Assembly (NCBI GenBank): GCA_037043015.1
Contig: CM073321.1
Span: 16,117,001 to 16,181,000 of the forward strand
Direction of reading: 5' to 3'
Source of the DNA: Bryum argenteum
Lineage: Eukaryota; Streptophyta; Bryopsida; Bryales; Bryaceae
DNA length: 64,000 bases
Shown: positions 1 to 53,451 of the stretch, piece after piece
How positions within the stretch are numbered: the first letter of the stretch is position 1
Layout of the letters: every line of letters starts with the position of its first letter
Position numbers and translations under genes: made by a program
The notes under the pieces: model-generated
The model's database searches: none
What the model was told of the DNA's origin: nothing
What the model saw: the letters and a program-made list of their open reading frames with translations, nothing else

Positions 1-3000
1 TAAGGAAAGTCTTACAACTTCGTCGTGCTCTTCGCTGGAGCTGATCGTGTAGTTCATCAGGGAACACATCTGCAAGTAGACACATCAAGAGATGCAACGT
101 CGATCATAAGATGTTTTAACTCGAGTCGAGTTGAAATGAAGGTGAACGATGAGAGAAAGCAAAGACTACTCTTCTGTGTGCATTCAACTCGAGTCGAGTT
201 GAATACCAACTTTACACTCTATGTTCCATGAAACACCAAATTTAACTCGAGTCGAGTTAAATCTAATAACACATGCATGAACAAGATTTCTTAGCATATT
301 TAGTACTCCATTCAATTCGAGTCGAGTTGAATAGACTTTAAGTTAGTGTAAAACTATACCTAGACAATAAGGTGCGCAATGAACCCGACTCGACTTTAAT
401 ACAACTAGTATGCAAGCAACAGAGCCATGGCGAATTATTCAACTCGAATCGAGTTGAAATATATAGGACATCCTTACCCAGGCCGCACAGTAGAGCTTCC
501 CGCCTCCAAACACACTGAGGATCGCATCCCCTTCCTTGCAGAAGATGTCAAGCAGCTTCAGGTAGAACTCCATCCTCAATTCCGTATTATAGATACGGTA
601 CTCGAGCTCGTTGTACCTCCCGCAGATCTTGAACTGTGGAGTGTCGGGGGCCTGGAAGAACTTGGGAAGATTCGAAATCCTCAACTTCTGATTTTTTCGA
701 AACAAGAATTTGTGATGAGAACGGGATTTGTGATGAGAACGTTCAGTGTAGCTGGAGTAATCTTAAAATCGGTCTTGAATTTCTTCCAGCTCTCCTTCCT
801 GAAGTCCCCACTTGTGCTAAACAGCATTAAGTCAGGGCGCATGCTATGAATCACGCGCTTCACGATGGTCTTCCTCTTGCAGCGCTCCAGCCAGTCGTAA
901 GAGCTGTAGCAATCTACAAGCACACCCTTCATCTGCTTCAATGTGACTTTGGGGTATGAGTGGCGCCGTTTTGGGTTCGGTCTGTTCAGCATATGCTCGG
1001 CTAATCGCTTGAGCTGGGCATAGCTACAGTTTCCGATCCATTTGAAGAACTCCCTGGTGAGGTGTCCATGGTCAGGCTTCCACTTCCCCAACTCCTTCAG
1101 CTTCCTTCCTGTTTCGGGATCGATGAGCTCCCCTTGGGATGCGGCTGAGATTAGCTCAGCCCAGACGTCGTAGAAACCATCTGGAGCTGTGATGATTTTC
1201 AGCTCATTTGCGATGTTAAGCTTCTCTCTGGCCGCCTTGCTTGTTGTCACTGCTCTCTGGGCGTTCTTGACGTCGATGAGAGCGAATCTTGTCCTGACAG
1301 CTTCCATGAACTCCTGTATCATCCGAGCACGGTATTGAGTTAGATATTTAACTCGAATCGAGTTGAAATAGGATACAACGGGATAGAAATTCAGAAATCA
1401 TTGTTAGTATTTTAGGACATTATTCAACTCGAATCGAGTTGAATGTAGGTACACATACGTTGAAATTGTCCTTTGCAGGCTTCTTTCCCTTGCCGGGCCT
1501 CTGAGTGACGACCCTGCCAACCTCAAGAGCCTCCTTCGGATTCTCCGGTCTACCGAGGCTTATCCACAGCTCCCGCGCCCCGATGATGTTTGTCGCCCAC
1601 GTCGGATTCGTATTCATGAAGTGGTTGACCCTGTTGTAGAACGCGGAGATTCTTCGAATGATGGGCTTTTCTTCGTTCCATACCACGAAGCAGTCCCATG
1701 TCTTGAATTCATCCTTGATGCTTTGGTCTACATCAGGCATGTTCTGCAACTGCTTGGATGCCTCGACGCAATGCTGTCCGTTGACCATGTAGAACTCCCC
1801 GTCCTTTATGTCCTCCCATGATCGGGGTTTCACAAGCTGATTCTTTGGGTAGACGCAGAGGGTGTTCTTCTTGCTCTTATCGGACATCTCAATCAGGAAA
1901 TGCCTCGTGTTCTTGACTTTCTCTTGCTCGAGGTTTCGGATGTTGAGGTCCGCAGGGGGGGTAAAGAGATGCTCGATTGGAATCTCGAAAGTCACATCTG
2001 AGCCAAAGATGTATGAGCTCTGGCAGAGCCCCCAGTAGTTCTTGAAGACATTCATGGACTCCTTGTAATCGACAACTTTGTCTACATCGTCGATGGGAAC
2101 CTCCGTCAAAGCCGACACTAAGCTCGCCTGTTCAATCTCGGTGGGGTCGGCCAAGGTCGACTTCTTCGTCGTGACTGATTTGAGCTTCTTCTGTGTCGGC
2201 CCCCGCTGAGCTGTGGACGGATTCACCTTGCGCCTCTTCGATCCCGTCGCCTCAGGAGTCTGGTATAGGATAGACTCGTGGCTGCCGCTTTGCATGCTTA
2301 CTTCCTGCGTCAGACGAAGAGGCGTCATTTGCATCTTCTTGCGCTGCAGCTTCGCCTTGAAGTTCACCATGGCAGTGACGAGTGATCGGAGACGAGGCGC
2401 GAGAATACTTGGTGGCTGTTGTTCACCGCCATCTTTTGTGAATCGAAACTCACGAATGTGTTGCTCGACATTCTTCGCCAAAGGTTCGTAAGGGGTATTT
2501 TTAATACTGTCGACATGTGCCAAGATGTCGAAATCCATCTTTGTTGTGTCGATCATGTAAGTGAACCTATAGTCTTGGTCCACAGCCGTGTCGTCGTTGG
2601 GGTCGTCCACGATGCACGTCACGCATATCCAATTCGTGTTGTGGACTACAACGTCGATGATGTTCTCTTCCAAATTCACAGGAAGGTTGCACTCCGCACC
2701 CGTGTACTTGGTGACGACAGCCAGCTTGTCCGTGTGCGGTGTGAGGAGCATACTCCACCATTCGACATCCGCAGGATTACTGTGCACCCACATGTCCCCA
2801 AATATTTCGGGATCTGCGACCTCGCTATCCTTTTCAGGAACATAAGGATCGAAGAAGGCTGAGAGCCTCTCCTTGGGATTTTCTCCTGCTGAGAAAGAGA
2901 AGCAAATTTAGTACTTATGTACTCAAATTGCAAGGATCGATATTCAACTCGAGTCGAGTTGAAATTGCATTCTCTACTTCTCAATTATGTTCATCTTCCT

Positions 3001-4077
3001 TAGTAAGGAAACTGTACTCAACTCAATTCGAGTTGAATGCTTTCATGACGGAGTAAGGTGGTCTCTACGTATAGTTACTATAGTTGCTACCCATGGTTAC
3101 TACATATGCAATAGTATCATCGGTTCCAGATTTTATTTACTGAAATGATATTCAACTCGAGTCGAGTTGAATCTAGTGTATATTTCTGACCTGTTTGAAT
3201 AGCTGGTCAGATTGTAACCTATTCATCTTCAATAGGTTTCGATGGATGTAGACGTCGTGACGTTCGCTGTACTCTAATTCAACTCGAATCGAGTTGAATT
3301 TGTTATCTTTAGGTTATTGAGTCCGGCTAACAGCATTACATCTCGATTTTCTTTAACTCGAGTCGAGTTAATATTTCTGGTCTTCTGCAAATTCTCGAAC
3401 CAACAAACCTAGTCTAATCCGTTTCAACTCGACTCGAGTTGAATTCTACCTGACTGACCTCATCTATGGAGGTATGCTGAGTTATCGTAATTCTAGTTGA
3501 GTGGATCTCCTAGACTTACTGTAGACTATTTTAATACTGGACTTCTTGTCTAGTTTAAGTTGTGCACAAGATTCAACTCGATTCGAGTTGAATAGTGTTT
3601 TGCAAGTCATTCATGTTGAATTTATGATTTAACTCGGGTCGAGTTGAATATGCATGCTAGAATGAGTTGACTAAATGTTTATAGTATAACGGTAGTTCAT
3701 TTTAGCTCGATTCGAGTTAAATTTTAATTAGCTTCTGTTATTGCACTGAGAACTTTCTAGAGTCGGTCTGTTTCAACTCGACTCGAGTTGAATTAGTATG
3801 ACACATTGTAACGTGAGGCGCTACTATAATTCAACTCGACTCGAGTTGAATTGGTAATGTGTCCTAACTTTATCCTATTTGGAAATATATTAGTCACACG
3901 TCACTACTTGTTATGCTACTTTGATATTAAAAATTTATTAGAGTAAAGATTCAACTCGGGTCTACTTGAATTCTCTCTGCTCTGTATGAGATTCAACTAG
4001 GGACTAGTTGAACTGCGAACGATTGTGCTACAACAACTTTAGATTGATCGAGTAAAATATACTGTTCACTCACCCAT
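1..4077 (-). CDS. Gene A, left copy: ParB-fold plus DNA-methyltransferase-like protein, C-terminus beyond window
   Basis: I read four exons on the minus strand: 4077-4074 (ATGG), 2885-1459, 1313-478 and 69-1. Donors GTGAGT, GTATGT and GTAAGG and CAG acceptors keep phase, giving about 780 residues. Residues 218-237 hold a bipartite basic stretch (KRRK, KKLK), a likely nuclear signal. Residues 366-385 hold EFYMVNGQHCVEAS, like box II of ParB/sulfiredoxin-fold proteins. Exon 1313-478 carries a SGDF segment followed by ITNP (residues 672-674), resembling motif IV of N6/N4 amino-methyltransferases. The same exon later has DAILSVFGGGKLYCAAW, like the glycine-rich SAM motif I. Motif IV before motif I is the permuted beta-class order, and ParB-methylase fusions are known in bacteria and phages. 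A direct duplication with a frame slip at about 700-735 damages the part after ITNP. The function is inferred, not shown. Confidence 0.62.
70..477 (-). repeat. Gene A intron 4 with six palindromes
   Basis: GTAAGG donor at 477 and CTTGCAG acceptor at 70. Palindromes start at 115, 183, 241, 311, about 380 (degenerate) and 438. The steps are 68, 58, 70, 69 and 58 bp, much like the 58/71/75 ladder of intron 2. No palindrome crosses into either flanking exon. Confidence 0.75.
478..1313 (-). other. Gene A exon 4 (left), methyltransferase-like region with local damage
   Basis: The exon starts at the acceptor GATACAG before GAGTTCATGG and ends at TGG before GTAAGG. The reading frame is open to about 735, where a short sequence (GTTCTCATCACAAAT) is repeated and the frame changes. 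The second half continues as LPKFFQAPDTPQFKICGRYNELE through to the FGGGK loop and the donor. The right copy keeps ITNPGKSFFTLAKF at the same point without this duplication, so the left copy seems to have lost a piece just after the motif IV-like segment. The left copy may therefore be catalytically dead even though its upstream exons are clean. Confidence 0.6.
1314..1458 (-). repeat. Gene A intron 3 with two palindromes
   Basis: Donor GTATGT at 1458, acceptor CAG at 1314. Palindromes at 1347-1367 and 1433-1453 fill much of this 145-bp intron. The right copy has the same intron at 54,865-55,009 with palindromes at 54,880 and 54,956, so site number and position are conserved. Confidence 0.8.
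2886..4073 (-). repeat. Gene A intron 2 with thirteen palindromes
   Basis: The intron runs from GTGAGT (4073) to CTTTCTCAGCAG (2886). Palindromes start at 2943, 3017, 3151, 3278, 3352, 3423, 3572, 3628, 3701, 3772, 3830, 3950 and 3992. Several neighbouring steps are 56-58, 71 and 73-74 bp, the same ladder as in the right copy, but some sites are lost. The typical site is a 10-nt arm TTCAACTCGA, one free centre base, and the mirrored arm. A TTTAAC/GTTAAA form also occurs, changed on both sides. Confidence 0.85.
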
Positions 4078-4148
4078 TGATAGATCTGCTTCTCTTCTAC
4101 TATGTAAATACCGCACGCAATTCAACAAGGCTCAGCTTTGCCCTGATC
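4074..4148 (-). other. Gene A exon 2: end of 5' UTR plus the ATG G start
   Basis: Conserved exon between the acceptor CCTACAG and the donor ATGG|GTGAGT. The only start that fits the frame of the next exon is ATG at 4077-4075: ATGG plus GA gives Met-Gly-Glu-Asn-Pro. Only four coding bases lie in this exon. The right copy has GTG at the same place (52,110-52,112), so its start is lost. Confidence 0.65.
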
Positions 4149-5025
4149 CTGTAGGAACAAAATTGTATACAAATGTGATCAATACTGCATTAAAACAAAA
4201 CTCGCTGCAATCCAGTAGAACAGCATCAACAATCCATGCAAAAAATTCCTAAATTCACCTCAGAAGCGATCATTTACAATTGAACATTGTAAGAAAAACA
4301 AGAATCCAGGTTAGCTGATCCAGAATCAGCGAACAATATCGAAGATCTAAGCTCCTGCAAGTGATCAATTCTGCTGGTGATCACAGTCGTATTCAAAGCC
4401 TTCTTATACAAGACCAAGTTGCAAAATAATTCAATACAAGCAGATAGGAGTTCCGACTGTAACGCCACTGAAATCAAATTGCAAAACGACACATTGACTA
4501 ATTAGCGTAACATTCCTACGAGAGTGGCTCCTGCTGTTCAAACGTGATTGTATACCAATACATGAAACAACCATATTATCTCTTGAACGAAGAGAGATAC
4601 GCCACAAGATTTGTAAAACCTCTAAGAAGGCAACACAAAAACCAGAAACAAAGACTCAACGTCATTGATGCAAAACGTCCAGAGAAATAATTGAATTGGA
4701 AGAAGACCAACACAAGAGGCAACAGGCAACAGGCAACATCAACTCAACCACATTCTGAATTGAAGCTAGCTGCAGAATTCAACCACGTTTCTTGTGGGCT
4801 TCTGCTACACGAGACCCTAAAGAGACTGCCGGTGATAACCCGGCCCCAATAAACCTCAAAATCCTGCCCTCGATTCGGATTGCAAGCTGCAACTCAAGTG
4901 AAAGAAGACCAACACAAGAGGTTTATGCAATCCGAATCGAGGGCAGAATCAAGAGATTGCAGGCTGCAACACAAGAGGCAACTCCGCATTCACAAATTTC
5001 AAAAACAAAAAAACCTAAAGCTTAC
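4149..5025 (-). other. Gene A 5' UTR intron 1 (no palindromes)
   Basis: Bounded by CTG|GTAAGC (5025) and CCTACAG (4149), and conserved in the right copy at 50,965-52,038. It has no coding potential I believe in and none of the 21-bp palindromes, although it lies next to the palindrome-rich intron 2. Confidence 0.55.
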
Positions 5026-5500
5026 CAGGAATTTCCGCCGCGGCAATAGAAGCTCTCTTCCCGTTGACAGTCGAAGCACTCCGCCGCAGCCGCCGCCGCC
5101 GTGTGAACGAACACCTTCACCGCCACGACCGCGCTCCTCTTCGCAGCTTGTCGAAAATCCTCCTCGGCGCAAACCCCAAAAACTCTAAACCTATCTACAG
5201 TAGTGCGCCTCGAACGAAATGGCGGCAAAGCAAACACAAGCTCACCACCACCGCTAAACGACAAAATCCTAGAACCTCAAAAGCCAGCGGTAAACAACAA
5301 TAGAGTCAACAGCGCAAAAAGACAAAAGCAATAATGCAGCGCGAACTCCGCGGATGGCAGAGGAAGCAAGAGCAAATGCAGCAAATGCGCGCAGAAGAAG
5401 TAAAAACAGAGCGCGCAGAAGATAGGGGACGAATGGCCAGTGGGTGAGGAAGATGGGGAGTGCCTCGTAATGGCGGCGGTGGTGGGACGTCCGTACCCCT
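5026..5500 (-). promoter_or_regulatory. Gene A first exon and promoter region
   Basis: GC-rich block conserved in the right copy (about 50,405-50,964). It ends at the CTG|GTAAG donor. Both copies can be translated from an MSFSGG start for about 35 similar residues (LPPFR, VDRFRVFGVCA). That frame does not join in phase to the Met-Gly exon, so it is either 5' UTR or a short upstream ORF. The outer part has a shared ACGTCCCAC...ACCGCCGCCATTACGAGGCA block. The transcription start was not determined. Confidence 0.5.
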
Positions 5501-5511
5501 TCACGAAAAAG

Positions 5512-5622
5512 TATTCCATGCATGGGCATGTGCATGGGCATGGTCATGCACATGGTCATACACACATACATGGCCATGTACATGACCATGCCGATGCACA
5601 TGATCATGGGCATGGCAAACTT
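5512..5622. repeat. CATG hexamer array
   Basis: About eighteen CATG tetramers in about 110 bp, mostly spaced by two bases (CATGGG, CATGTG, CATGCA), starting at CATGCATGGG. The array recurs at 50,300-50,405 in the right arm at the same place upstream of gene A. CATGCATG is the RY element recognised by plant B3-domain factors. The histidine-glycine reading frame across it follows from the repeat and is not credible as a protein. Confidence 0.7.
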
Positions 5623-5962
5623 TTTACTTTAGTTATTAATTGTTGTAAGCTTCTTACTTTTTATGTATATTTACTAATTTTTCCACTAATTCTTGACTAA
5701 GTTTTGACTATAATTATGTCTAAGTTCTGTTCAATTTCTGACTAAGTGAATGTGTAGGTTTTTAATGGAAGTTTCTCACTAAAATGTAATTAAACCCGGG
5801 CCGCCTTACACGCTGCCCCCGCCATAAATTGCTTCGGGTAGCAATCTCTTGCCCTTGTCATGTCTGCCAGCCTCCACACTACACTAAATTCCATTATATT
5901 TTTCATTTATTTCTAACTATTCATTTAAGTTAATTTTTTTGAAAAGAAGATAAGTTCAATAA
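5623..5962. other. Intergenic centre of left copy, first part
   Basis: AT-rich until about 5,790, and matched in the right copy. From about 5,790 the left copy has sequence the right copy lacks, including a GC-rich patch (CCCGGGCCGCC) and the telomere-like block that follows. No gene seen. Confidence 0.5.
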
Positions 5963-6052
5963 ATGCCAAAACCCTAAACCCTAAACCCTAAACCCTAAAC
6001 CCTAAACCCTAAACCCTATACCCTATACCCTAAACCCTAAACCCTAAACCCC
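5963..6052 (+). repeat. Interstitial plant-type telomeric repeat
   Basis: About twelve head-to-tail CCCTAAA heptamers, two changed to CCCTATA. It lies in the left copy's intergenic region and is absent from the corresponding right-arm sequence, so it was gained after the copies split or lost from the other. Confidence 0.9.
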
Positions 6053-6454
6053 TTCCCAATTAGTTAACGTTCTCCAATCCAATAAGGTCATCATTAACTC
6101 GAAAATGAAGGTAATAAATTATCCCCTCTCTACTAATTTCTAAGATGTTGTCAACTCATAAAATTTTATTATTAATATAAACACCTACAAATTAAAAATA
6201 TTAGTGGATAGCTATATAATCAAATAGGAAGGTTTGAGAGAACGAATTGGACAATATAAATAAGACTATGAGAGTATATAGATAGAAGATATCTTTAACA
6301 AACATCATGTATACTATAGACATGCACCACACATATCATGGCCATACATCACAACTATCATCGACGTACATCATTCATACCATAGCCATACATCATACAT
6401 ACCAAAAGATCGTCCAACAGTTTTATGTTTGAGAAGTAGATTACTGACTACAAA
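6053..6454. other. AT-rich intergenic DNA
   Basis: No gene. Short near-repeats of CATACATCA / CATCATACATACC occur at 6,300-6,410. Confidence 0.5.
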
Positions 6455-7800
6455 CCTTATATATATCTCTATATACGTATGTTAATTTATTTATATATTC
6501 ATGTATATACATATTTGAACTCGTATGCACATATAATTGTGCTTTCCTTTTCTAAATTAAGATAGCACAATCAATGCTCAACGTATATTCAAATATATGT
6601 TAATATTGAACATAATTGAATTAAGATTCTAGGAAGTTAATGTATGTACCAATGTCTAAATATATACATACGTACTTATTTTGGTCTTCATATTCAATTT
6701 TACTTGTATGTATATCTCCATATACGTATATTAATTTATTTATATATTCATGTATATACATATTTGAATTTGTAATCGTATATGACAGGGCCTCCCTTCT
6801 CTAAATTAAGATAGCACAATCAATGCTCAACGTATATTCAAATATATGTTAATATTGAACATAATTGAATTAAGATTCTAGGAAGTTAACGTATGTACCA
6901 ATGTCTAAATATATACATACGTACTTATTTTGGTCTTCATATTCAATTTTACTTGTATGTATATCTCCATATACGTATATTAATTTATTTATATATTCAT
7001 GTATATACATATTTGAATTTGTAATCGTATATGACAGGGCCTCCCTTCTCTAAATTAAGATAGCACAATCAATGCTCAACGTATATTCAAATATATGTTA
7101 ATATTGAACATAATTGAATTAAGATTCTAGGAAGTTAACGTATGTACCAATGTCTAAATATATACATACGTACTTATTTTGGTCTTCATATTCAATTTTA
7201 CTTGTATGTATATCTCCATATACGTATATTAATTTATTTATATATTCATGTATATACATATTTGAATTTGTAATCGTATATGACAGGGCCTCCCTTCTCT
7301 AAATTAAGATAGCACAATCAATGCTCAACGTATATTCAAATATATGTTAATATTGAACATAATTGAATTAAGATTCTAGGAAGTTAACGTATGTACCAAT
7401 GTCTAAATATATACATACGTACTTATTTTGGTCTTCATATTCAATTTTACTTGTATGTATATCTCCATATACGTATATTAATTTATTTATATATTCATGT
7501 ATATACATATTTGAATTTGTAATCGTATATGACAGGCCTCTCCTTCTCTAAATTAAGATAGCACAATCAATGCTCAACGTATATTCAAATATATGTTAAT
7601 ATTGAACATAATTGAATTAAGATTCTAGGAAGTTAACGTATGTACCAATGTCTAAATATATACATACGTACTTATTTTGGTCTTCATATTCAATTTTACT
7701 TGTATGTATATCTCCATATACGTATATTAATTTATTTATATATTCATGTATATACATATTTGAATTTGTAATCGTATATGACAGGGCCTCCCTTCTCTAA
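6455..7800. repeat. 249-bp tandem repeat, about 5.4 copies
   Basis: The landmark GACAGGGCCTCCC recurs at 6,784, 7,033, 7,282, 7,531 (variant) and 7,780, a period of 249 bp. Copies two to five are almost identical, so the expansion is recent. The first copy is diverged. The right arm has only diverged single versions of this sequence at 49,080-49,450. The unit is AT-rich and non-coding. Confidence 0.92.
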
Positions 7801-8560
7801 ATTAAGATAGTACAATAAATGCTCAATACGTAGTCAAATTTATCTTATAATCATTCATCATTAAATGGAAATATTATGTATTTAACATCTATACCCGTAT
7901 CTATGTACATATACGTACTTATTTATCTAAGTTAATATTCATTTGTACTCGGGTATATATCCATGTATACCAATTTTAACTCGTATGGTCATATAATCGC
8001 GCTTTCATTGTTCTATATTAAGATAGTACAATAAATGCTCAATACGTAGTCAAATTTATCTTATAATCATTCATCATTGAGTTGAAATATTATGTATGTA
8101 ACATCTATACCCGTATTTATGTATACATACGTACTTATATATCTATTCATATACATTTGTACTCGTATATAGATGAATTAATATATTATGTATTTATCAT
8201 AGTATGTATTTAACATATTATGTACTTAATATATTATGTATATATTGATGTATATTGAAATGTATTCATAGATCCATTTATTTGTAGTGATTTTATTCTA
8301 TGTTAGTATTTTATGCTTTTTTTTGGTATTTTTTATTAGTAGTGAACCATATATATGATTCCATTGATTTTGAGTTACTAGGTAAAGTTTTGTCAATGGA
8401 ATGTTCTCAATTACTCTAGTTACTCTAATTTTGTAAATATTCTATCTTATTCAATAAATTTACGTGTACGAATTTGTATTTTTTTTCCACAACTCATACA
8501 TGTGTATTGAATGTTTAATTTTATGGAGAAAACATTAAATCACATTTCTTTGTAAAAAAT
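7801..8560. other. AT-rich intergenic DNA before gene C
   Basis: Two diverged half-units related to the tandem repeat (around 7,800-7,990 and 8,020-8,170), then plain AT-rich sequence matched in the right arm at about 48,640-49,080. No gene seen. Confidence 0.5.
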
Positions 8561-8599
8561 TTAAATTGCATACTTACGAATGGGTTTCCCTCCAAAATC

Positions 8600-8640
8600 A
8601 GTTTCCCGCCGAAACATCTTTGCCGCCGAATATTTTCAAA
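8600..8640 (+). promoter_or_regulatory. E2F-like site in the gene C promoter region
   Basis: TTTCCCGCCGAAA at about 8,604-8,616 matches the plant E2F consensus TTTSSCGC. The right arm keeps TTTCCCGCCGG with the same neighbours (TTTGCCGCCGAATATTTTC). E2F sites drive S-phase transcription in plants; binding here is inferred. Confidence 0.45.
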
Positions 8641-9112
8641 ATTCAGAATTAAAAAGTAGATTCCTATTTCGAAGCCCAATCAAGACAACATGCAGGTTGC
8701 GACAAAAAGAGGTCGGCTTTTTGCACGATATCGGGAGTCGAGGATACTCGACCGATTCAACCGTTGAGGTCGGGTTGGGGTGTAACGCAGTCCCTCATGT
8801 TTCATTTCGATTTCTCTCACTCTCGTCCGTGCTTTGAAGGTGCGCTTACCTTGATTTCGTTCCGCTGTCCTTGTTCAAAGTTGCGTGTCAGTTTAGATTG
8901 TATTGAGTTTGTGCTGACGGAGTTTAAAGTAGTTTCCCATTTTGAGGTTCTAGTATTGTAGAAGAGGCGCATCCTCTTGTACTTTGATTGTGTTTCTGGT
9001 TATCGAAGTTGCTCGTGTTGTATTGTTTCTCTTCCGCATACGAATTGCTGATTGTTGTGCGTGCTTTTTTCAGTTGCGAGCCCTAGTATTCCTCGCGAAA
9101 TCTGCAATTCGC
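8640..9112 (+). other. Gene C 5' UTR exon
   Basis: Conserved with 48,066-48,600 in the right arm. It ends at TTCGCAG|GTGAGC (donor at 9,113), which both copies keep. Reading frames here are broken differently in the two copies, so I treat it as untranslated. Confidence 0.5.
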
Positions 9113-9973
9113 AGGTGAGCGTTCTTCGGAATTCCTCAGTGTTTCAGCAGTTACTGAATTTTGAATTTGAGCTGATTACGAGTTCCGGGACTTCCGCCGG
9201 TATTTCCGGGTGAATGTTCTCCATATTTCAGGTCTCCATATTTAAATCATTTAACTCGACTCGAGTTGAAATAATTATGCAGGTGTATATAGGTCTGTCC
9301 AATTTCAACTCGGGTCGAGTTAAATTGTAATTCAGTCCTGATTACGTAATTAGGATTTTAGACTTATAGGTGGTGATATTCAACTCGAGTCGAGTTGAAA
9401 TGGAAGGAATCCGATTTCATGGGGTTCTTCCCTTTACGGTACGGATATTCAACTCGGGTCGAGTTGAATCACGAACTGGATATCAAGCAGATTATAACAG
9501 CAAAATTGGATTCAACTTGAATCGAGTTAAATGTGGATAAGAGATACCATCTATATGCCTAAATGAATGTCTTAGAATCCGATATGCTGTATTCATGGAT
9601 ATTCACATTCAACTCGACTTGAGTTGAATCGGTTATCACCAAGCTCTTCAGGTGATTTACACTAGTCTTGTCGATTGTTGTGGTTTCTATATCGGACTCA
9701 GATACGTGACTATTATCTATGTAACATGATTTAACTCGATCCGAGTTAAATCAGAATTAGCACATATTTTGAGATATGCGTTTCCTTGAAGTAGGTTATC
9801 TTCGTTTATCTATGGGTATTCAACTCGATTCGAGTTGAATACCCAGACTTCTTAGCTGGAAGAGAATTTATTCCAACATCTTGTCTACGTATAAATAATT
9901 CTTCTCGATTTCTGTCATTATTCTATTCAACTCGAGTCGAGTTGAACCACCACATATTCTTCTGTTCCTCAAG
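9113..9973 (+). repeat. Gene C 5' UTR intron with nine palindromes
   Basis: From GTGAGC (9,113) to the acceptor TTCTGTTCCTCAAG (9,973). Palindromes start at 9,250, 9,304, 9,379, 9,448, 9,511, 9,608, 9,730, 9,819 and 9,926. The right copy has nine in the same order. Site 7 is the TTTAAC/GTTAAA type in both. Spacing is less regular than in gene A intron 2. Confidence 0.8.
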
Positions 9974-10004
9974 TCACGTTCGTGATCAATTTGCAAACTC
10001 TACC

Positions 10005-12845
10005 ATGGCTGATCAAGACGCTCAATTGCTTGGTGATTTTTCCTCTGATGAGGAGGTTGTGGAGCAACCCGAGGTTCCAGTAGACGTTCCAATGTGTGAA
10101 GGTATCCCTCGTCGTCTTTGGGCTACAAAGTTCGTTACCCTTTACGGTGACGAGGGTCGCCCTGTAGCGGAGGGCCTTTGTCAGAGCATCAGTTACGATC
10201 TCGTCCTCGGAAGCAACGGTCCACTTGGGCACTCCCGAGTCGCAGTTCAAATCTCGAAGACCCTTGATGCCACAGTGGTGCCAGATGAGTGGAGATATTC
10301 TGTGAGGGCGTGGCCGATCGATAAAGTCTTCTATAATGGAGCTAGTCTCAGAGACCATGAGATACGACACGATCATGACTCTCGTGTTGCACGTCTTGCT
10401 AGACCTCAGTCATCGCGTAGCCGGAGTTACAACAATACATCTAGGAACCCGCCTCCTGAAACATCCGTTAAGTCCAAAGGCTTATTAACTCAGGAGTCCA
10501 TCAATTTTGTCTCCAGCAAAGTTTGCTGCACCAGGAACTGCGTTTAGCCCTTCCCGAGGGAAAAGATCCAATGTTTCCGAGAGCGGATGTATAGTGGTAC
10601 AACCTACCAATTCAGGTTTCACATGAAGCTTGATGTGCACAGGCAGCTTCATCGAAATGCTGGCGGGAAGAGGGTGGTCACGGTTGAGGGAATCGATGTT
10701 TGCTTGCCTGCGTGGAGACATAATGCTGGAGTGTCCGAGGCGACCTTTCATCGGTTTCAAACGTACGTGGCCGATGGCGTCATGGCGCATCCCCATGGAA
10801 ATTCGTCTTTGCTTAAACCGCGCAAGCACACGTCGCAGGCAACTGCAACCCTGCGTTGCATCCTAGAGAACTCTGCCGATCACATGCCGCACCGAACGAG
10901 GACACTAAAATCTGGAGAGAAGGTTGTATCCATGATTCTTCCCGCTACATGGAAATGGAAGAGTACCATCCCGGAAATCAACGCCGCAAACGAAGGCTTC
11001 GGTTTGAAGATGGTCTCACCATCTTCTCTGAGTAGAATTCGGAAGTTACACTTTCCTGAATTTGATGCGAAGAAACCCGGGGATAACTTCGCTCGGTGCT
11101 CCAAATGTGATCGGTTGCACACACTTCGTCGTGGCTCTATTCTCGGGTCGCAACAAGCACTACTTTGGGCAAAGAAGCTCGAGGTACACTTGGCTGCAGC
11201 CCGTGCTCATCGGTAGTTATATTATGCAAACAGGTATAGGTCCAAAACCTACCCGCATGAGTGTCTGACCATTATGCATGACAAAATGGATCATGCGAAG
11301 ACTGCTTCCCCTGTCTTTTCTCACAAGAGTAAGGAGCTCGATGGTTTGATGAAGCTACCAGTATCCGTCACAGGAATGATCGCTCATGGCCACGGAGATG
11401 TACGCTACGCACATTACGGTCTAGATATTTTCGCACACGATTCAAATTACACGGTGGACTCTTTTGCTAACATGCTCCGAGATATAGAGTTGCCACCAAA
11501 GTACTCTTCGAGGGAGCTTTTTCTTCGGTCGAGGTCGGCACCTATCTTTGATGCTGTTCTCCATGGTGCGGAGACTTGCGTATCGTCACTCCGTCCAGCA
11601 CCAGCTGTTCCAGTTCGAGGGATTTCTCTTCCGCCAATTCTCAATGTTCAGATGGACAATGCAGCAGGGGACAACAAGAATAGATATGTATTCTGTTTTT
11701 GGTCTCTCCTTGTCGCGAAGAAGATCTTCCGCGAGGTATATGTGAATTTCATGTTGGTTGGGTATACCCATGATGACATCGATGCAATGTTTGGAAGGTG
11801 GAGCATGCTGTTGAGGAAAGACAATTTCCCCACTATTCTGTTACTCATGAAATCTTTCATGGACGTGGAATCTATTCCAGCCATCCCCCACCTTGTTGAA
11901 GAGGTGCCGGATTTTAAAGGATTTATCGATGGGTTTATCAAGGATGGAGGGGAAGCACTTGTTGGTCATACGAAGGCACAACAATTCAAGTTCTTTTTGG
12001 ATTCTACAGGTTGTCCCGTGATGAAGTACAAGGCTTCGTGCACAGCAAAAGATTGGTTGCCAAATGATACAACCGGAATTAAGTTGTGGAGAGAGGACTC
12101 GGAAGGTCGTTGTTTGTGGCCACGTGGTGATCCAACCCCTACGACGCATCGTGCAATGAGGGGTGTGGAGGACATTGTGAAGGGCATTTCTGGATTTATC
12201 AAGTACTGGGAGGCAATGTCTAATGAAGATAGAACTGGAGAGTATAGAAGAGGCTATGAACATCTTGTGTTCTATTGGCGCGCAGTGAAGGCAGCTCTAG
12301 AGGTACCCATTGAACCATCAAATGTTCTTCGGGACGGATTTTGGCCATTGTCCAGGATAGATGCGACTTTGGAGGACCAATTTGCTGAAGATGGCGAACT
12401 TCGTGAGGAGTTTGGAGAAGATGAGGCATTTGTTGGAAAGATCCGAGATCGCCCTCAACCATCTTTCCGTGTAGCTCGTGATGTTTATGAAGGATACTTT
12501 CTTGCTATTCGGCCTGCAGATGGTGACTCACGACCGGTGTGGATCGCTCGAGCGTTGGCAGATCCGAATATAAACCCCGAGCAGCCAAATTGCATCCTTA
12601 TTCAATTCTTTCGGCCTACATCAAGGGATCGAGATGTGCAAGAGACCTACAATGGATGGGATTCGGTCAAAGGATTGCGTTGGAAGGTTGACGATACTCA
12701 ACCTCCTTTGTGGGAGAATACAGCTTCATTGATGATTTCATGGAAGTCAAAGGTCAAGAAGGATACAACCGAGTGCACTTTAAAAATTCCGGTGGATCAA
12801 ATTAAAGTCATTCACGATACTATAGTTGAATTTTCTAATGCTTGA
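10005..12845 (+). pseudogene. Gene C, left copy: DUF7869-like putative DDE transposase with two in-frame TAG codons
   Basis: One uninterrupted frame of 947 codons from ATG at 10,005 to TGA at 12,845, broken only by TAG at 10,545 (codon 181) and 11,214 (codon 404). There is no frameshift. The N-terminus is acidic (DFSSDEEVVEQ). A C-x2-C pair lies at about 11,098-11,112 (CSKCDRLHTLRRG). The core shows HDKMDHAKTASP (from codon 425), NVQMDNAAGDNKN (Asp551) and GYTHDDIDAMF (codons 588-598). These match the arrangement of DUF7869 proteins, which look like RNase-H-fold DDE enzymes. The C-terminal third (12,060-12,845) has no motif I recognise. It is transcribed away from gene A, and I infer it is the mobility partner. 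Both stops could come from one-base changes; CAG to TAG fits the second. Confidence 0.7.
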
Positions 12846-13240
12846 AGGTCTTATATGTATTGCAATCGTATTTGAGTATTGTAACAACTACATAGTCATG
12901 GCTTTGTCTTCCGACTTAGAAATAATAATCTTTTGTTTCAAATTCAAAAGGTTATAGGCATTTATAAATATAGAAGATATGTTAGACCAAATGATCTACA
13001 AGGATGTGTGGTTTAGGATGTTGGTAGTATCAATGGAATATGGACTATCTTCAAGTCACTTAGCTCACTTCGAGCAACACTTTGTTTGTAGTACTGGGTT
13101 TCATTTGAAATCAAAAATACATTGTACGCATTTATGAAAATATATTTCTATACTATATTATAGTATTGATTTGTTCTTTCCAATTAGTACTTTTGTCGAT
13201 TGATTTATGTGAAAAAAAATTATAACATGTATTTAATTTG
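12846..13240. other. 3' flank of gene C
   Basis: AT-rich, non-coding, matched at 45,215-45,609 in the right arm. Confidence 0.5.
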
Positions 13241-13480
13241 TTATAAAAGGTAGTAGTGGTTAGCACCACTGATGTTTGTGTATGTCATACATGTCACAAT
13301 TAAGGGTACGTGGTTGGTTGGTAGCAAATATTTTCCTGCCCGCTGAAGCTCACTTAGCAGTACCAAGTCATGTGTACATTTTAGCTGCTCAAACGAGTCC
13401 GACCGGAATCGAACTCGGACCACCTACGTTGTACAGAAACTCCTTCTTATCCAACCACTGAGCTCATGACTTGGTGTCCA
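13240..13480 (-). repeat. tRNA-like SINE-type segment
   Basis: On the minus strand, 13,466-13,390 reads like a decayed tRNA. It has an A-box-like GAGCTCAGTGGTTGG and, about 45 nt later, a B-box-like GAGTTCGATTCC, which are the pol III promoter elements. A tail of tRNA-unrelated sequence follows to about 13,240. The right arm has the same segment at 44,975-45,215, so it was present before the copies separated. Ends and target duplications are not clear. Confidence 0.5.
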
Positions 13481-13697
13481 TTTCAAAATTACTCCGGTCT
13501 TTATATTAATCAATTGGAAAAAGCGCTTAGAAACGCCACGGTGCACAAACTTTCCCCCATATTATACTATAATTTGAATGGAAACTTTAAGATTCAAAAC
13601 TTTCTAAGTTATTTGTGTACAACAAAACATCATTCTAAAACCTCTCAATTTCATTTTGAGAGGATTATTAACTCTCAAAATAATGAATATGGTGTTA

Positions 13698-14340
13698 AGG
13701 AGGTTATCAAACTGACCCAGATTTGTGAAGTGCCACCTGAAACACTTCAAAAGGCCAACCTGTTCGAGGCCGGAATCATTGGGTCGGAAGTGTTTAAAGC
13801 CGACATCTTTTGGAAATTCTTGAAGGCAACCATGAAGTACACTGCGAAGATCGAGACCAGCAACAAGACATGCGTAACCGTGCTTGAATCCGTCCGCGAT
13901 TAAATTAGGGAGGTCGGACCAGTTCCGGCCCCCCACAGAAATGCATTTCCCTGGCTCCGGTAAACCGTCCTTCTCTAGTTGACGTCCCGAGAACGGATGC
14001 AAGGGCTTCCAATTCGGCCACCCCCAAGGACAAGGGCAAGAGAGAAGCGGAAGCCCCCGTCCTAGCCAAACTCTTCGGCCAAGAACACTCTTTCTGTGGC
14101 CTGGAAACTCCCAATCAAAGATTGAGAGAAGTCGACAACGGCCCAAAAAAGCTTCACGAGTAGGTCGGCATCACCATCTGAGATGAAGAGGAACTGAAGA
14201 GCAAGCCGGATACAGATTATGAGAGCGACAAGGAGTACGAGATTGTCAACAGAAAGCGGATCAAGACAGTCCGGATTTCAACAACCCTGGTAAAACGACC
14301 GAGGCGCGATGTCAATTGGCGTCGCAAGAGGTAGCAGTAC
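13698..14340 (+). other. Degraded ORF remnants beside the left arm end
   Basis: A short open stretch (to 13,903) and a charged segment at about 14,185-14,333 ending in basic residues (NRKRIKTV, KRPRRDVNW) are on plus with stops between. They look like a decayed TE structural protein, but I do not recognise the family. Confidence 0.25.
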
Positions 14341-47056: not shown

Positions 47057-47115
47057 GTAGAGACCGCAAAATCATCACAAACAATACTTGAGGAACAAAT
47101 GAATATGGGGCGGTT

Positions 47116-47928
47116 CAACTCGAGTCGAGTTGAATACAATAATGACAAAATAAACCCAGTTTTATATATCTGTCCATTCGATATAGAAATAGAAGTAGAA
47201 AAAAATTATTTACACAAAGAAAAGATGAATGAATAGATTCTCTGTCAACTAATATATCTATGAATTCAACTCGGGTCAAGTTGAATGCCTACAGATACTT
47301 GAAGTGAATCTACTTCACGGAAATGTATATCTAAAAATATGTGCTAATTATGACTTAACTCGATTCGAGTTAAACATTGTTGGGATGGTTAGAATATCAC
47401 GTGCCTGAGCCGGACCAACTTGACTCTAGTAAATATTCGAATGCATAAAAATATTATCTTCTCACGGCTAAACAAGAGTAAACTGGATGATGACCAATTC
47501 AACTTGAGTCGAGTTGAATATCACAACCCATAAATATAGCATTTCTTATTCTGTGAATATTATTAATACTTAAAGTTTATATCCCATAATATGTGGTAAT
47601 TCATATTTAACTCGATTTGAGTTAAATATTATTTGGATGATGACGGTATCAGGTGTTCCTGCCGAATATCCACACCGGGATTCAACTAGACTCGAGTTGA
47701 ATATCCGCATCCATAAAGGAATTATCCCCTTATTATATATCTTACTGATACTAGATGATTTCCAATTCAAGTCAAGTCGAGTTGAATATCAACACCTATC
47801 AATATATATCATTCAAATTCTGAAACCATGACTGGTACTTGGATCTTACAATTTAACTCGACTCGAGTTAAAATTGTACAGACATACATACTACGGCAAT
47901 ATAATTTCAACTCGACTCGAGTTGAATT
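47116..47928 (-). repeat. Nine palindromes in the gene C 5' UTR intron (right copy)
   Basis: Centres near 47,126, 47,275, 47,364, 47,508, 47,618, 47,691, 47,776, 47,861 and 47,917. The order and count match the left intron, while the spacers have drifted. The intron runs from the donor CAG|GTGAGC at about 48,065. Confidence 0.8.
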
Positions 47929-48065
47929 TGTTCACTATGGACCAGTTTGCTTAAACATTCACTCGGAAATAATGGCGGAATTTACGGAACTCATAACCAG
48001 CTAACACTCAATAATATACAGTAAGTGTTGAAACATTGAGGAATTCCGAACCACGCTCACCTGCG

Positions 48066-48610
48066 AATTGCAGATTTCGAAAGGAAAACTAAGGCTCGCA
48101 ACTGTAGAAACCACGCACAAAGATTTGTAACTAATACAGAAGTCGAAAAATACATAACGAGCAACTGTCATAACTTGAAACATTATCAAACTAATACATC
48201 ATGAGCCACTTCTACGATACTCAAACCTCTAAATGCGAAACTACATCAGACGCAATCAGCACCAACTCAAACTTCTTCTACACACACACGCAACCTTGAA
48301 CCTACACACCGGACCGAAATATGAAACGAAGCGCACCTCGAGAGCACGGACGAGAGTGAGAGAAAATGAAAGAAAAGATTGAGAGACTGAACTAGCAACC
48401 CCAGTCCGACCTCAACGGCTACATCGTGAGAGTATCCTCGACGCCTGATATCGTGCAAAAAGCCGACACATTTTGTCGCAATATAAATTTGGTCTTGATT
48501 AGGCTTCTAAATAGGATTCCACTTTTTAAAACTGAATTTTGAAAATATTCGGCGGCAAATATGTTCCGGCGGGAAACTGATTTTGGAGGGAAACCCATTC
48601 ATAAATATGG
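48066..48610 (-). promoter_or_regulatory. Gene C 5' UTR exon and promoter (right copy)
   Basis: Conserved with 8,600-9,112, including the E2F-like TTTCCCGCC on the minus strand near 48,570. Confidence 0.5.
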
Positions 48611-50290
48611 AATTTTTATGTTTTACAAACAATTGTGTCTTAAATTTTTCTCCATAAAATTAAACATTTTATACATAACAATAAGTAGTAGAAAAATAAT
48701 ACAAATTTGTATTAATATATTTATTGAATAAAATATAATAATTACAAAATTAGAATAACTAGAGTAATTGAGAACATTCCATTCACAAAACTTTACTTAA
48801 TAACGCAGAATCAATGGAATCAAATATATAGTACACTACTAATAAAAAATACCTTAAAAAACATAGAATACTAAAATAGAATAAAAACAGTACAAATAAA
48901 TGGCCATATGAATAAATATAAATATACATCAATATATACATAACATGTTAAATACATAATATTTTAACTCAATTATATACGAGTACAAATGTATATGAAT
49001 AGATAACTAAGTACATATATATACATAGATACGAGTATAGATGTTAAATACGTAATATCTAAACTCAATTATAATTGATAATAAGATAAATTTGAATACG
49101 TATTGAGCATTTATTGTGCTATCTTAATATAGAACAAGGAAAGCGCAATTATATGCCCATACAAGTTCAAATATGTATATATATGAATAAATAAATAAAT
49201 ATATATATGTATTTATAGATATATACCCGAGTACAAATGAATACTAATATAGAATAAAAACACCATAAATAAAAGTGCATATGAATAAATATAAATATAC
49301 ATATATATATAAATATAAATAGATAGAAGTGTAGAAGTTATATTCACAATATCTTAATTCAATTATAATTGTTTTTGAGATAAATTTGAATACTAATTAC
49401 GTATTTATTGTGCTATCTTAATTTAGAATAAAGAAGCGCAAATACATGCCCATTTGAATACAAATATATGTAAGAATTTAAAAATAAGTACGTATATATA
49501 CATGTATACTAGTAAAGAAGTTAAATTCATAAAATCTTTATTCGATTATATTAATGGTAAGATGAAGTTGAATACTAATTAAGAAACAAGGATCATGTGT
49601 TTTCTGTTCTTAACAACACATTACGTTATAATAATACAATAATAAAATATTATATTAGCTATATTATCAAACATTTTATTGTTATATTCCTAGTATAGAA
49701 GTTATAACAATTGTCCATGATCAACATTTACATATCAATTGACTGTTGATAGTTAAGTTTATATTTCATCGTTATATAGGTTCATATTAACTAAATTGAC
49801 TCTCATTCTATTGATATGTGTGAGGTATGGCCATGGTATGTGTGATGCATGGCCATTGCATACATGATGTTTCTCAAAGATATCTTCTATCTATATATCT
49901 ATGTATATTTATTTTACTCTGATGATCACAAAATTACACATCAATTAGAAAGTGAAGAGTCTTATATCAAATCATTTTTAATCTAAAATGGTTTTTCATG
50001 CATGTCTACTGTAGGGGATAAAAACTAAACATGACAGACTTTTTATTACAAAAGACATGGAACAATGTACTCTAAATTACATGTTTATAACTAACAATTT
50101 AGAGTACTTTAGAGTACTAAATTTAATTACAATTTAGTCAGAAACTTCCATTAAAAACCTACCCATTTACTTAGTCAAAATTTGGAGAGAACTTAGACAT
50201 AATCGTAGTCAAAACTTAGCCAAGAATTATAGAAAAAATTAGTTAATATACTTAAAAAGTAACAAGCTTACAACAAATAATCACTGAAGT
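48611..50290. other. AT-rich intergenic centre of the right copy
   Basis: No gene. It holds unexpanded, diverged versions of the left arm's 249-bp unit (49,080-49,210 and 49,400-49,510, around GTGCTATCTTAAT), and no telomeric block. Confidence 0.5.
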
Positions 50291-50299
50291 AAAAAAGTT

Positions 50300-50405
50300 T
50301 GCCATGTCCATGATTATGTGCATGGGCATGGTCATGTACATGGCCATGTATGTGTGTATGACCATGTGCTTGACCATGCCCATGCACATGATCATGGGCA
50401 TGGAA
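50300..50405. repeat. CATG hexamer array (right copy)
   Basis: Same array as at 5,512-5,622, reversed, upstream of gene A. Confidence 0.7.
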
Positions 50406-52113
50406 TAATTTTCGTGAATGGAGTACCAACGTCCCACTACCGCCGCCATTACGAGGCACTGCCCATTTCCCCCACCCACTGGCCATTCCTCCCCTATCTT
50501 CTGCACGCTGTGCTTTTGCTTTTTCTGCGCGCATGCACTTGCTTCATCTGCTTTTGCTCCCTCTGCGATCCGCGGAGTTCGCGCTGTCCTCTTCTTCTTC
50601 TCTTTTTGCACTGTCGACTCTGTTGTCGTTTTGCGCTGGCTTTTGAGGTTCTAGGGTTTTGTCGTTTAGCGGTGGTGTTGAGCTCGTGTTTACTTTGCCG
50701 CCATTTCGTTTGAGGCGCACTATTGTAGATAGGTTTAGAGTTTTTGGGGTTTGCGCCAAGGAGAAATTTGGGACGGAGCTGCGAAGAGGAGCGGTCGTGG
50801 TGGAAACTCTGACCTGCGAAGAGGAGCGCGGTCATGGCGGTGAAGGTTGTGACGTCTGCTTTTGTGGAGAAGGATTATCGCGGCGGGAGAGGGTGTACCT
50901 CGGCTTAGTGCGGAGTGCGGAAGAGGGTTTACTGCCGCGGAGTGCGGAGTTCAGCAAGTTGCTGGTAAGTTTTAGGTTTTTTATTTTTTAAACTGTTGAA
51001 TATCGACTTGTCGCTCCTGTTCATGAACTCGAGTTGCCGCGTGCAATCCGAATTGAGGCCGGAATTTTGAGGTTTTTGAGGCCGGGTTTTTACCGATAGT
51101 CTGTTTAGCGTCTCGTCCAGGAGCAACAAGTTCTTCAAATTTTCATTCTAAACAAGGAGAGAAGATGTTTTGCTCAGAAATTGTGTCATAGAAATGCATG
51201 TGTACGTAGATCACGAGGGTACGGAGTGCGTACTGGAGCCATGGCAGCAAATGATCGTCTCCTTGATAGTTGTCGATAGCTTCAATCATTGATCTAAGCG
51301 ATTTAGAGAGCATAGATTAGAGCCTCCATTCATTCATTTGAGATAAATGGCGTGGAATCCATTCATTTCATGTATCCCGTTCAACTATCAGAGCTAATTT
51401 GATTGAACCAATGTTTCTGTTTTCTTGAGTTTCTTGGCCTCGAAAGTCGCTAGCTGCTAGCCTCGAGAGTAGGTATCTCCTGGCCTCGAAGGTCGTGTTA
51501 CTCGTTCTTGTTTATATAGTTCCTCCTGTTATCTACTTGCTTGCCTTTGTAGGTTCTCGCCTGCTTCTTGCTCTGCCCCTCGACCGACGTTGTGTATGTA
51601 AATTTCCCGAATGGCGCAACTTTTTGTCGTATTCAGAGATCTAGGCTCGTGTAAGTATTGAGTTAATTCTGTTCTTTAGCCACGAGTTGGTTGAGTGGAC
51701 TTTCTGTCGCCCGATGTTCGTCAGTGATCACGAGCACATTTGATATTGTTTGCTGAATCTGGAGATGATATTCTAGATTTTTGTTTTTCTTAGCATGAGC
51801 AGTTGTAATGGTTTCATGTGGTGAATCAACGACTTTTCCGCATGGATTGTTGATGCTGTTGTACTGGATTTTTTTTTCTTAGCATTATCAGTTGTAAATG
51901 GTCTCATATGTCGTGAAGTGAGGACTTTTCTGCATGCATTGCTGATGCTGTTCTACTGGATTGCACCAAATTTTGTTTTAATGCAATATTTATCAGATTC
52001 GACACTGATAAAATTTGAATGCAATTTCGTTCCTTCAGGATGAGGACAAAGCTTAGCTCTGTTGAATTGTGTGCGGTATCTACATAGGAGAAGGGAAGCA
52101 AATCTATCAGTGG
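50406..52113 (+). other. Gene A first exon, 5' UTR intron and exon 2 (right copy)
   Basis: Exon 1 ends at CTG|GTAAGT (50,964/50,965). Intron 1 ends CCTTCAG (52,038). Exon 2 is 52,039-52,113 and ends CAGTGG|GTGAGT. The left copy's ATG is GTG here. Confidence 0.55.
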
Positions 52114-53451
52114 GTGAGTAAACACTATTTTTTACTCATTCAATCTAAAGTTGTTTTAGCATAATTGTTGGTAGTTCAACTAGACCTTAGTTGAATCTTA
52201 CACACAACAGAGAGAATTCAACTCAACCCGAGTTGAATCTCTAATCCATTAATTTCTTAATACTTAAAGTAGCATTATAAGTAGCAACGTTTAACTCATA
52301 TATTTCCGAATAGGATAAAATTAGGACATATGAACAATTCAACTCGACTCGAGTTGAATTAGAGTAGCGCCGTATGTTAGCAACTCTAATATTAATTCAA
52401 CTCGAGTTGAGTTGAACCGGACTGACTCTGTAAAGTTGTCTGAGCAATTACAAAAGCAAATTAAAATTTAACTCGAATCGAGCTAAAGTGAACTTGCATT
52501 ATAATGATGTCAATTCAGTCGAGTAAGTCTCACATACATATTCAACTCGACTCGAGTTAAATCAGAGTAGCGACATGAGTGACTACCTAAAACAATAATT
52601 CAACTCGAGTCGAGTTGAAACGGGTTAACAAATTAAAGTTGTAAAAGCAGCTTAAAAAGAAACATAACATTTAACTCGACTAGAGTTAAAATGGACAAGC
52701 ATAGTTATAATATTGATCGACTTCACTTATTCTTAGTGGACCAATTCAACTCGAACCGAGTTGAATCAGTTTACCTCCATACGTGACCAACAATAATTAT
52801 AATTCAACTCAAGTCGAGTTGAAACGGACTAACTAGGTAGAGTGGTTTGAGCAGTTTAAAAAGACCAAAAAATTTAACTCGACTCGAGTTAAAGTGAATT
52901 AGCGTCGTTATAATGCTGATCAAAGTCAGTAACTCACTGTAAACATATTCAACTCGATTCGAGTTGAATCAAAATACCGCTTACGTGAGCAACTATAAAA
53001 ACATTTTAACTCGAATGGAGTTGAAAAGGATAGACATTCGTCAGTTGTTCAGGCAGTTCAGAAAGAAGCTTAACATTTAACTCGACTCAAGTTGAATAAC
53101 ATTCCAATAACTATAACCTGACAAAGATCCTAATATAGCCTCCGTATGTCAACAATCGAGTTGAAAGTATCTAAACTTTGTATGTAGAGACACAAAACGC
53201 CGTCAAGGAAACATTCAACTCGAATCGAGTTGAATCCAACTTCCTTGCTAACGATAATCGTAGACTAACAGAGACAGGTAGAATGCTATTTCAACTCGAC
53301 TCGAGTTGAATAAAACTTACTTGGACAGTTGCTAACGATATTCGTAATCTAATAGAAACAGTTAGAATGCTATTTCAACTCAACTCGAGTTGAATACTAA
53401 TCCTTGCAATACGTATGGATAAATACTCATTTGGCCCCTCTGTCTCATCAG
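52114..53451 (+). repeat. Gene A intron 2 (right copy): 203-bp repeat carrying three palindromes per unit
   Basis: Seventeen palindromes start at 52,175, 52,217, 52,338, 52,396, 52,467, 52,541, 52,599, 52,670, 52,745, 52,803, 52,873, 52,948, 53,005, 53,076, 53,214, 53,290 and 53,374, with a half-site near 53,150. From 52,338 the steps repeat as 58, 71, 74-75 bp, a 203-bp period over about four units. Site 3 of each unit (52,467, 52,670, 52,873, 53,076, exactly 203 apart) is always the TTTAAC form. Spacers share fragments such as GCAGTTTAAAAAGA but have drifted more than the palindromes. Confidence 0.88.

Follow-up and report, generated by a model that had tools for sequence, protein, structure and literature searches.

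Why would a moss DNA transposon carry, beside its transposase gene, a second gene with ParB-like and methyltransferase-like parts, together with dozens of copies of a long palindrome? The question is raised by a stretch of 64,000 nucleotides from Bryum argenteum (GenBank assembly GCA_037043015.1, contig CM073321.1, positions 16,117,001 to 16,181,000; hereafter the window). A preliminary description, made from the sequence alone, had proposed a plant mobile element composed of a ParB-like and methyltransferase-like gene (gene A), a DUF7869 transposase gene (gene C) and the palindromes, and this combination holds in moss. The window DNA comprises one near-complete copy (copy A) and one inverted, damaged copy (copy B) of a 17.6-kb DNA transposon, and its sister families within this genome have palindromic words unlike its own. 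Our preferred answer, to which we attach somewhat less than an even chance, is that this is a family of moss DNA transposons, probably of the Sola superfamily, with sequence-specific self-recognition that serves VANC-like anti-silencing or raises the element's own transcription.

A 17.6-kb transposon with two divergent genes

The extent first given for the element was too short. Copy A spans window -3868 to 13696 (G000:C1:16113132-16130696), of which 1..13696 lies within the window, and it has boundaries common to other copies and terminal inverted repeats (TIRs) at both ends. The 26-bp repeat, AACACCATATTCATTATTTTGAGAGT, lies at 13671..13696 (minus strand) on the right and at L004:6132-6157 on the left, L004 being the stretch that reaches left of the window, and the copy is flanked by the target duplication AAGG (window 13697-13700 and L004:6128-6131). 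Across the genome searched (258.8 Mb in 25 contigs) we found 162 such ends with at most two mismatches and none with the reversed control, and 23 facing end pairs were recognised among the ends listed. With one end pair 30 kb apart left out, an exact 4-bp target duplication was present in all 20 further complete copies and a 5-bp duplication in none; as a control, mismatched end pairings agreed at 4 bp in 0 of 380 cases. Copy c8.16, for example, has the duplication TGTA, and in the decayed copy c6.76 the duplication matches at three of four bases. We conclude that the element is a TIR-type DNA transposon.

Both copies keep the divergent gene pair, as first described. In copy A, gene A is a long multi-exon gene on the minus strand and gene C lies on the plus strand. 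Copy B, from 44754 to about 55600, is inverted and has a shortened gene C (remains at 45613-47055, minus), with gene A exon 2 at 53460-54864 and exon 3 at 55010-55600 (both plus). The linkage is not confined to the window: among the matches listed, drawn from the 90 of 983 and 88 of 956 candidates that were scored, a divergent gene A lay within 25 kb of at least 36 of 56 gene C copies of the window's own family (family 1) and at least 14 of 24 copies of its sisters, and the mirrored gene arrangement, taken as a control, was found for 0 and 0.

Gene C (10005..12845, plus) is a single frame encoding a DUF7869 transposase of about 940 amino acids (Pfam DUF7869, E = 1.7e-41). It is interrupted in copy A by in-frame stops at 10545 and 11214, whereas its relatives are open. 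The nearest named relative, from Ceratodon purpureus, has 947 amino acids and is 84% identical over the query; a relative from Physcomitrium patens is 66% identical. Among the residues invariant in 16 relatives are D427, D430, D552 (within QMDNA) and D594 (within GHTHDDID), aspartates that would allow a DDD triad. In the sections of the literature consulted, Sola elements are described as having a DDD transposase, a 4-bp target duplication and TIRs, some being longer than 15 kb, and Sola1 is listed from the moss Physcomitrella (PMC10741241, PMC9033089, PMC3627910). Since Sola is so described and has a representative in Physcomitrella, we regard it as the likely home of the element, which resembles it in its 4-bp duplication and TIRs; gene C is thus probably a transposase of the Sola type, placed there by described features and not by sequence. 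Neither gene A nor the palindromes is mentioned in the consulted parts of these Sola accounts (PMC10741241, PMC9033089, PMC3627910). Further DUF7869-type genes, with 28-49% identity, lie beside elements at L005:1108-3043 and L009:7134-8520 and probably represent yet other families.

Intronic palindromes and their family-specific words

The preliminary description had counted about 58 copies of a 21-bp symmetric site. The dense array is real, and the count is 56 when up to three mismatches to TTNAACTCGANTCGAGTTNAA are allowed, copy A contributing 29 sites and copy B 27; 100 shuffles of the window gave a mean of 0.05 matches and never more than one. The core, AACTCGANTCGAGTT, occurs 1509 times genome-wide and its reversed control once. 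All 29 sites of copy A inside the window fall within 2600 bp of predicted introns: 12 in intron 1 of gene A (2886..4073, minus), two in its intron 2 (1314..1458, minus), six in its intron 3 (70..477, minus) and nine in an intron of the 5' untranslated part of gene C (9114..9972, plus), predicted from splice-like ends in the sequence. We found none in exons 2 and 3 of gene A, none in the 5036 bp between the genes and none in the final 3725 bp of copy A, a stretch that starts ahead of gene C. One more site of copy A lies left of the window (L004:9088) and has a counterpart after exon 4 in c8.16. The 27 sites of copy B (47114..54976) form three groups, at 47114-47926, 52217-53394 and 54880-54976.

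Genes and sites also occur together elsewhere. The first 100 core matches listed form seven clusters, all of which contain gene A or gene C and four of which contain both (for the three clusters with a single gene, 10-kb stretches were examined). Gene A copies lacking both gene C and the palindromes would have counted against the element as first proposed. None of 30 gene A loci (L019-L048) lacked palindromes: counted over the exon plus 1.5 kb on either side, and with up to four mismatches allowed, each carries 9 to 20 sites.

The sites are also constrained. Measured against L019, all 29 loci showed less change at site bases than at the remaining bases of the introns. In the 13 loci with alignable introns, sites differed by 2-3% (6.5% in one) and other intron bases by 5-19%, and site divergence was below that of exon 2 in 12 of the 13. 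Each site contains two CpG dinucleotides, for which neutral decay is expected to be faster, not slower. In L022, L026, L029-L031, L034, L035, L037, L039 and others, a very different intron 1 array accompanies a similar exon 2, and the arrays seem to be replaced as blocks.

Sister elements carry other words. Gene C copies of the window's family are at least 79% identical, and those of the sisters 55-64%. The window's family uses TTYAACTCGANTCGAGTTRAA; the word of one sister family, TTTAGCTCGANTCGAGCTAAA, occurs as 6373 exact 19-mers genome-wide and that of another, TTATCCCCGGNCCGGGGATAA, 693 times, each with a control of 0. Upstream of gene C in five sister elements we found TTTAGCTCGANTCGAGCTAAA in four and TTATCCCCGGNCCGGGGATAA in one, in 11 to 15 near-perfect copies each, and the gene A stretches L055 and L054 of sister families have the matching word between their exons. 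A further word, TTCAGCTCGANTCGAGCTGAA, is present in two moss-like contigs (L017 and L018). Filed under the Synechococcales cyanobacterium AVDCRST_MAG81, these contigs carry intron-split gene A copies and are probably eukaryotic (moss) contamination of a cyanobacterial genome. All words are odd-length dyads with a free central base and the common core CGRNYCG, and their arms change symmetrically. Among 451 sites, T/A at positions -8/+8 was seen 46 times against 13.6 expected (22 against 8.5 among 143 distinct sites), so the symmetric change is found within sites as well as between families. Several distant gene A relatives seem to show the site as a peptide read through into the intron. The ParB-like exon of gene A is 28-30% identical between families, compared with 55-64% for gene C, as expected of a specificity factor. 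Because sister elements in the same genome carry different words, these results suggest self-marking and self-recognition by each family, perhaps as a means of escaping host silencing.

The gene A product and the surroundings of the element

In copy A, gene A begins with a predicted exon 1 (4074..4077, minus) that contains the start codon and is followed by the donor GTGAGT. Exon 2 (1459..2885, minus) is ParB-like and has the box VNGQHxxxAS, in which NGQH is replaced by DGQH in the third family. Exon 3 (478..1313, minus) is methyltransferase-like and lacks about 540 bp that are present in five other copies; its relatives include a P. patens protein (P0052). The low-complexity exon 4 starts at 1..69 (minus), and later exons, probably belonging to this gene, lie left of the window in L004.

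Scans of exons 2 and 3 against Pfam and NCBIfam returned no family above cut-off and those against PHROG only weak rows, and none of the ParB-like exons of gene A scanned matched ParB (PF02195) in Pfam. In an hhalign comparison with four ParB proteins of phages, this exon appears to lie in register across the boxes NxR, PI.V and GQ..A (E = 0.0042, probability 8%), with a score of 28.9 against a maximum of 17.6 in 25 shuffles. The C-terminal part of exon 3 aligns with motif I when set against a profile of 11 methyltransferases of the beta class, namely YhdJ of E. coli and ten enzymes from phages (E = 1.7e-4, probability 49%); its score of 39.9 compares with a maximum of 25.5 over 40 column shuffles, and the reversed alignment scored 21.1. 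We regard both alignments as modest evidence. The remainder of the beta-class domain did not align to exon 3, the ParB-like exon gave E = 0.058 and a probability of 0.9% against the same profile, and PF01555 was matched by two of 36 relatives, at best with E = 0.0035, below the gathering cut-off. A sequence search of the PDB gave no match with the exon-2 profile and chance-level rows with the exon-3 profile and with the NIF exon described below, and no gene A relative was found in a viral contig collection.

The catalytic motifs have been lost. In all 36 aligned relatives (35 of 46 exon-3-related proteins plus L017) the catalytic DPPY is replaced by DFR, and in the third family by DLR; motif I reads GxK, not GxG, in 33 of the 36, and in the remaining three the sequence is truncated or out of frame at this point. 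The segment SGDF...TNP of the preliminary description is not the catalytic motif, since the true position (DFRN) lies within the roughly 540 bp missing from exon 3 of copy A. Judged by these motifs, we take the gene A product to be a protein built from former enzymes and probably used for binding. In prokaryotes, ParB proteins load on palindromic parS sites, and ParB-methyltransferase fusions have a ParB-like part followed by a methyltransferase-like part. Gene A has the same order of parts but differs in being an intron-containing gene of a eukaryotic transposon with degenerate catalytic motifs. Four phage methylases considered as candidate ParB fusions had no ParB domain (0 of 4).

Downstream of exon 4 lies an exon resembling NIF/FCP1 phosphatases (PF03031), with E = 2.3e-15 in c8.16, 1.7e-14 in the second family and 2.3e-14 in L018; its scores of 53.8-57.1 bits exceed the gathering cut-off of 21.8. 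The NIF/FCP1 catalytic signature is DxDxT, and phosphatase activity is doubtful because DLNG stands at that position in all three elements. We assign the exon, with probability rather than certainty, to gene A, because three elements share this exon order, a small linking exon 5 has splice-like ends, and exons 5 and 6 appear to be in phase. Yet an intact frame through exons 4 to 6 was found in none of the four copies traced (two further copies could not be anchored), and c8.16 has an open exon 4 whose phase is off by one base relative to exon 5, so the NIF exons may form a separate gene. Our estimate for self-recognition is untouched by this result, as it rests on exons 2 and 3 and on the sites.

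The part of copy A between its two divergent genes contains CCCTAAA telomere-like repeats (window 5967-6050) and a 249-bp AT-rich unit in tandem (window 6458-8002), five units being at least 94% alike and one 67%. Directly left of copy A, L004:1248-4333 holds diverged (71-77%) 3' pieces of gene A and two palindromes (L004:2605 and 4268). Elsewhere in the window, open frames at 37632-39575 and 56068-57383 resemble, by eye, a hAT transposase remnant and a long terminal repeat retrotransposon polyprotein, respectively. Contig C1, which accounts for 44.1 of the 258.8 Mb, holds 85 of the 105 gene A exon-2 matches listed, nearly five times its share of the genome; it is possibly a sex chromosome or another low-recombination chromosome. 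Two of the Ceratodon gene C relatives, KC19_VG078600 and KC19_VG296900, have names that resemble those of what we take to be V-chromosome genes. We found nothing in the literature on moss transposable elements that combined sex chromosomes with a transposase.

Which factor reads the palindromes

Conserved sites with dyad symmetry and a free centre, repeated many times within the transcribed non-coding sequence of an element and altered as a set from one family to the next within a single nucleus, are those expected of a dimeric binder encoded by the element and able to find its own family, and the presence of three words in one nucleus likewise favours an element-encoded reader. We prefer gene A over gene C as this reader because the ParB-like exon diverges faster and because the sites avoid the ends, where a transposase works. 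On this account the gene A protein, ParB-like, methyltransferase-derived and probably NIF/FCP1-like in part, would bind the palindromes as a symmetric dimer. The element would have multiplied these 21-23-bp palindromes within introns of both of its genes. Bound within the transcribed part, the protein may keep the element's genes active against host silencing, or raise their transcription, and if protein and palindromes of each family diverge together, activity would be confined to that family.

VANDAL elements, which have a Mutator-like transposase, offer a parallel. In Arabidopsis, their VANC proteins bind family-specific motifs in introns and other non-coding DNA, where methylation is lost as a result (PMC5735166, PMC10398659). 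In the parts of these accounts consulted, VANDAL elements resemble the moss element in encoding an extra protein and in having short motifs multiplied in non-coding parts, including introns, each family having a motif of its own that evolves together with the protein; arrays of family-specific motifs outside coding sequence are also what we found here. The VANDAL target duplication is given in the literature as 7-12 bp, whereas the element described here has a 4-bp duplication and a DUF7869 transposase. It also differs in its longer palindromic site, the lack of intergenic sites, its moss host and, going by description only, the make-up of its protein. Fungal DNA transposons with a gene for a TET/JBP dioxygenase (PMC12730594) are alike in that a DNA transposon carries a DNA-modification gene, but that gene is a different one and the transposases belong to other groups, and palindrome arrays are not mentioned in the parts of that account consulted (PMC12730594).

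Several observations weigh against self-recognition through gene A. For 20 of the 56 gene C copies of family 1 and 10 of the 24 of its sisters, the matches listed included no gene A; some of these may be true losses. The introns that contain the sites were called from splice signals and reading frames. The other 16 of the 29 comparisons of site constraint are weak, intron 1 being poorly alignable there (30-44% non-site differences), and in 14 of those 16 loci divergence is higher at the sites than in exon 2. Similarity among sites can also be maintained by tandem duplication and gene conversion. The region between the genes is free of palindromes, whereas VANC21, in the accounts as consulted, is also located in intergenic and terminal regions (PMC5735166, PMC10398659). 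Finally, gene C also differs between families and could itself read the sites.

An unlikely but serious alternative is that the gene A protein is an ordinary regulator of transcription or elongation that acts on intronic enhancers of both genes and so sets the amount of transposase, its NIF-like part acting on RNA polymerase II. The first introns of the two divergent genes, with 12 and 9 sites, do hold the densest arrays, the window's family and two relatives have a NIF domain, and intron placement together with a NIF-like part would suit an effect on transcription. With about 29 sites in each copy, reaching into introns 2 and 3, the arrays nevertheless exceed the needs of a promoter switch, and the DLNG reading and the possible separateness of the NIF exons count against that part of the proposal. 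It is improbable that the gene C transposase binds the palindromes for synapsis or targeting, as in other elements with internal repeats. Gene C accompanies the sites and diverges between families (55-64%), but gene A is the more divergent protein, the sites lie in introns of both genes, and the 3725 bp near the right end of copy A contain none.

Quite improbable, too, is a role in RNA, with paired intron elements controlling splicing or feeding small RNAs. The intron placement would fit, and symmetric co-change between families would also preserve pairing; a single free central base, on the other hand, leaves no room for a hairpin loop. Among one-sided changes on the sense strand, C-A/A-C mismatches outnumbered those of the G-U type (179 against 91 in 451 sites; 84 against 58 in 143 distinct sites), and the outer eight pairs of the distinct sites gave 47 against 41, no clear preference. 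We judge an RNA helix unlikely because these counts show no preference for wobble pairs. That a host factor binds the palindromes and is merely exploited by the element is very improbable: transposons often borrow host enhancers, but three families with three different words coexist in one genome, and the words appear to follow the gene A lineage in other species. Least credible of all is the earlier suggestion of an active methyltransferase, encoded by gene A, that marks the palindromes on adenine or cytosine, for although its motif I region aligns with beta-class enzymes and the cores of the first two words contain GANTC and two CpG, both catalytic motifs are degenerate as described above and GANTC is gone in the third family (GGNCC).

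A fuller version of self-recognition, which we think rather unlikely as a whole, would make the element a second, independent invention of such self-recognition in land plants: a symmetric dimer derived from ParB and methyltransferase, perhaps with a NIF-like arm and perhaps a sliding clamp of the ParB type, would load on intronic, family-specific palindromes and lift silencing across the transcribed body of its own family, and the words would diversify by symmetric change and array turnover so that families coexist without cross-talk. Within the literature searched, gene A and its palindrome system appear to be undescribed, as first claimed, but the transposase probably belongs to the known Sola superfamily. 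The same searches found no paper naming DUF7869 and nothing on palindromic intron elements in Physcomitrella or on transposon-encoded anti-silencing in moss, and a search combining ParB, methyltransferase, DNA transposon and moss matched work on giant viruses only.

In our assessment, VANDAL/VANC is the main case in which the escape of transposons from silencing is known in terms of sequence, and the moss element may be a second case of transposon anti-silencing, with other components. Its long palindromic site lends itself to assay, and with three words or more in a single genome the co-evolution of protein and site can be tested directly. The system extends to two laboratory mosses, since Physcomitrium patens has relatives of both genes and Ceratodon purpureus has relatives of gene C. 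If this reading is true, ParB-like and methyltransferase-like domains would have been recast as a protein of a eukaryotic transposon.

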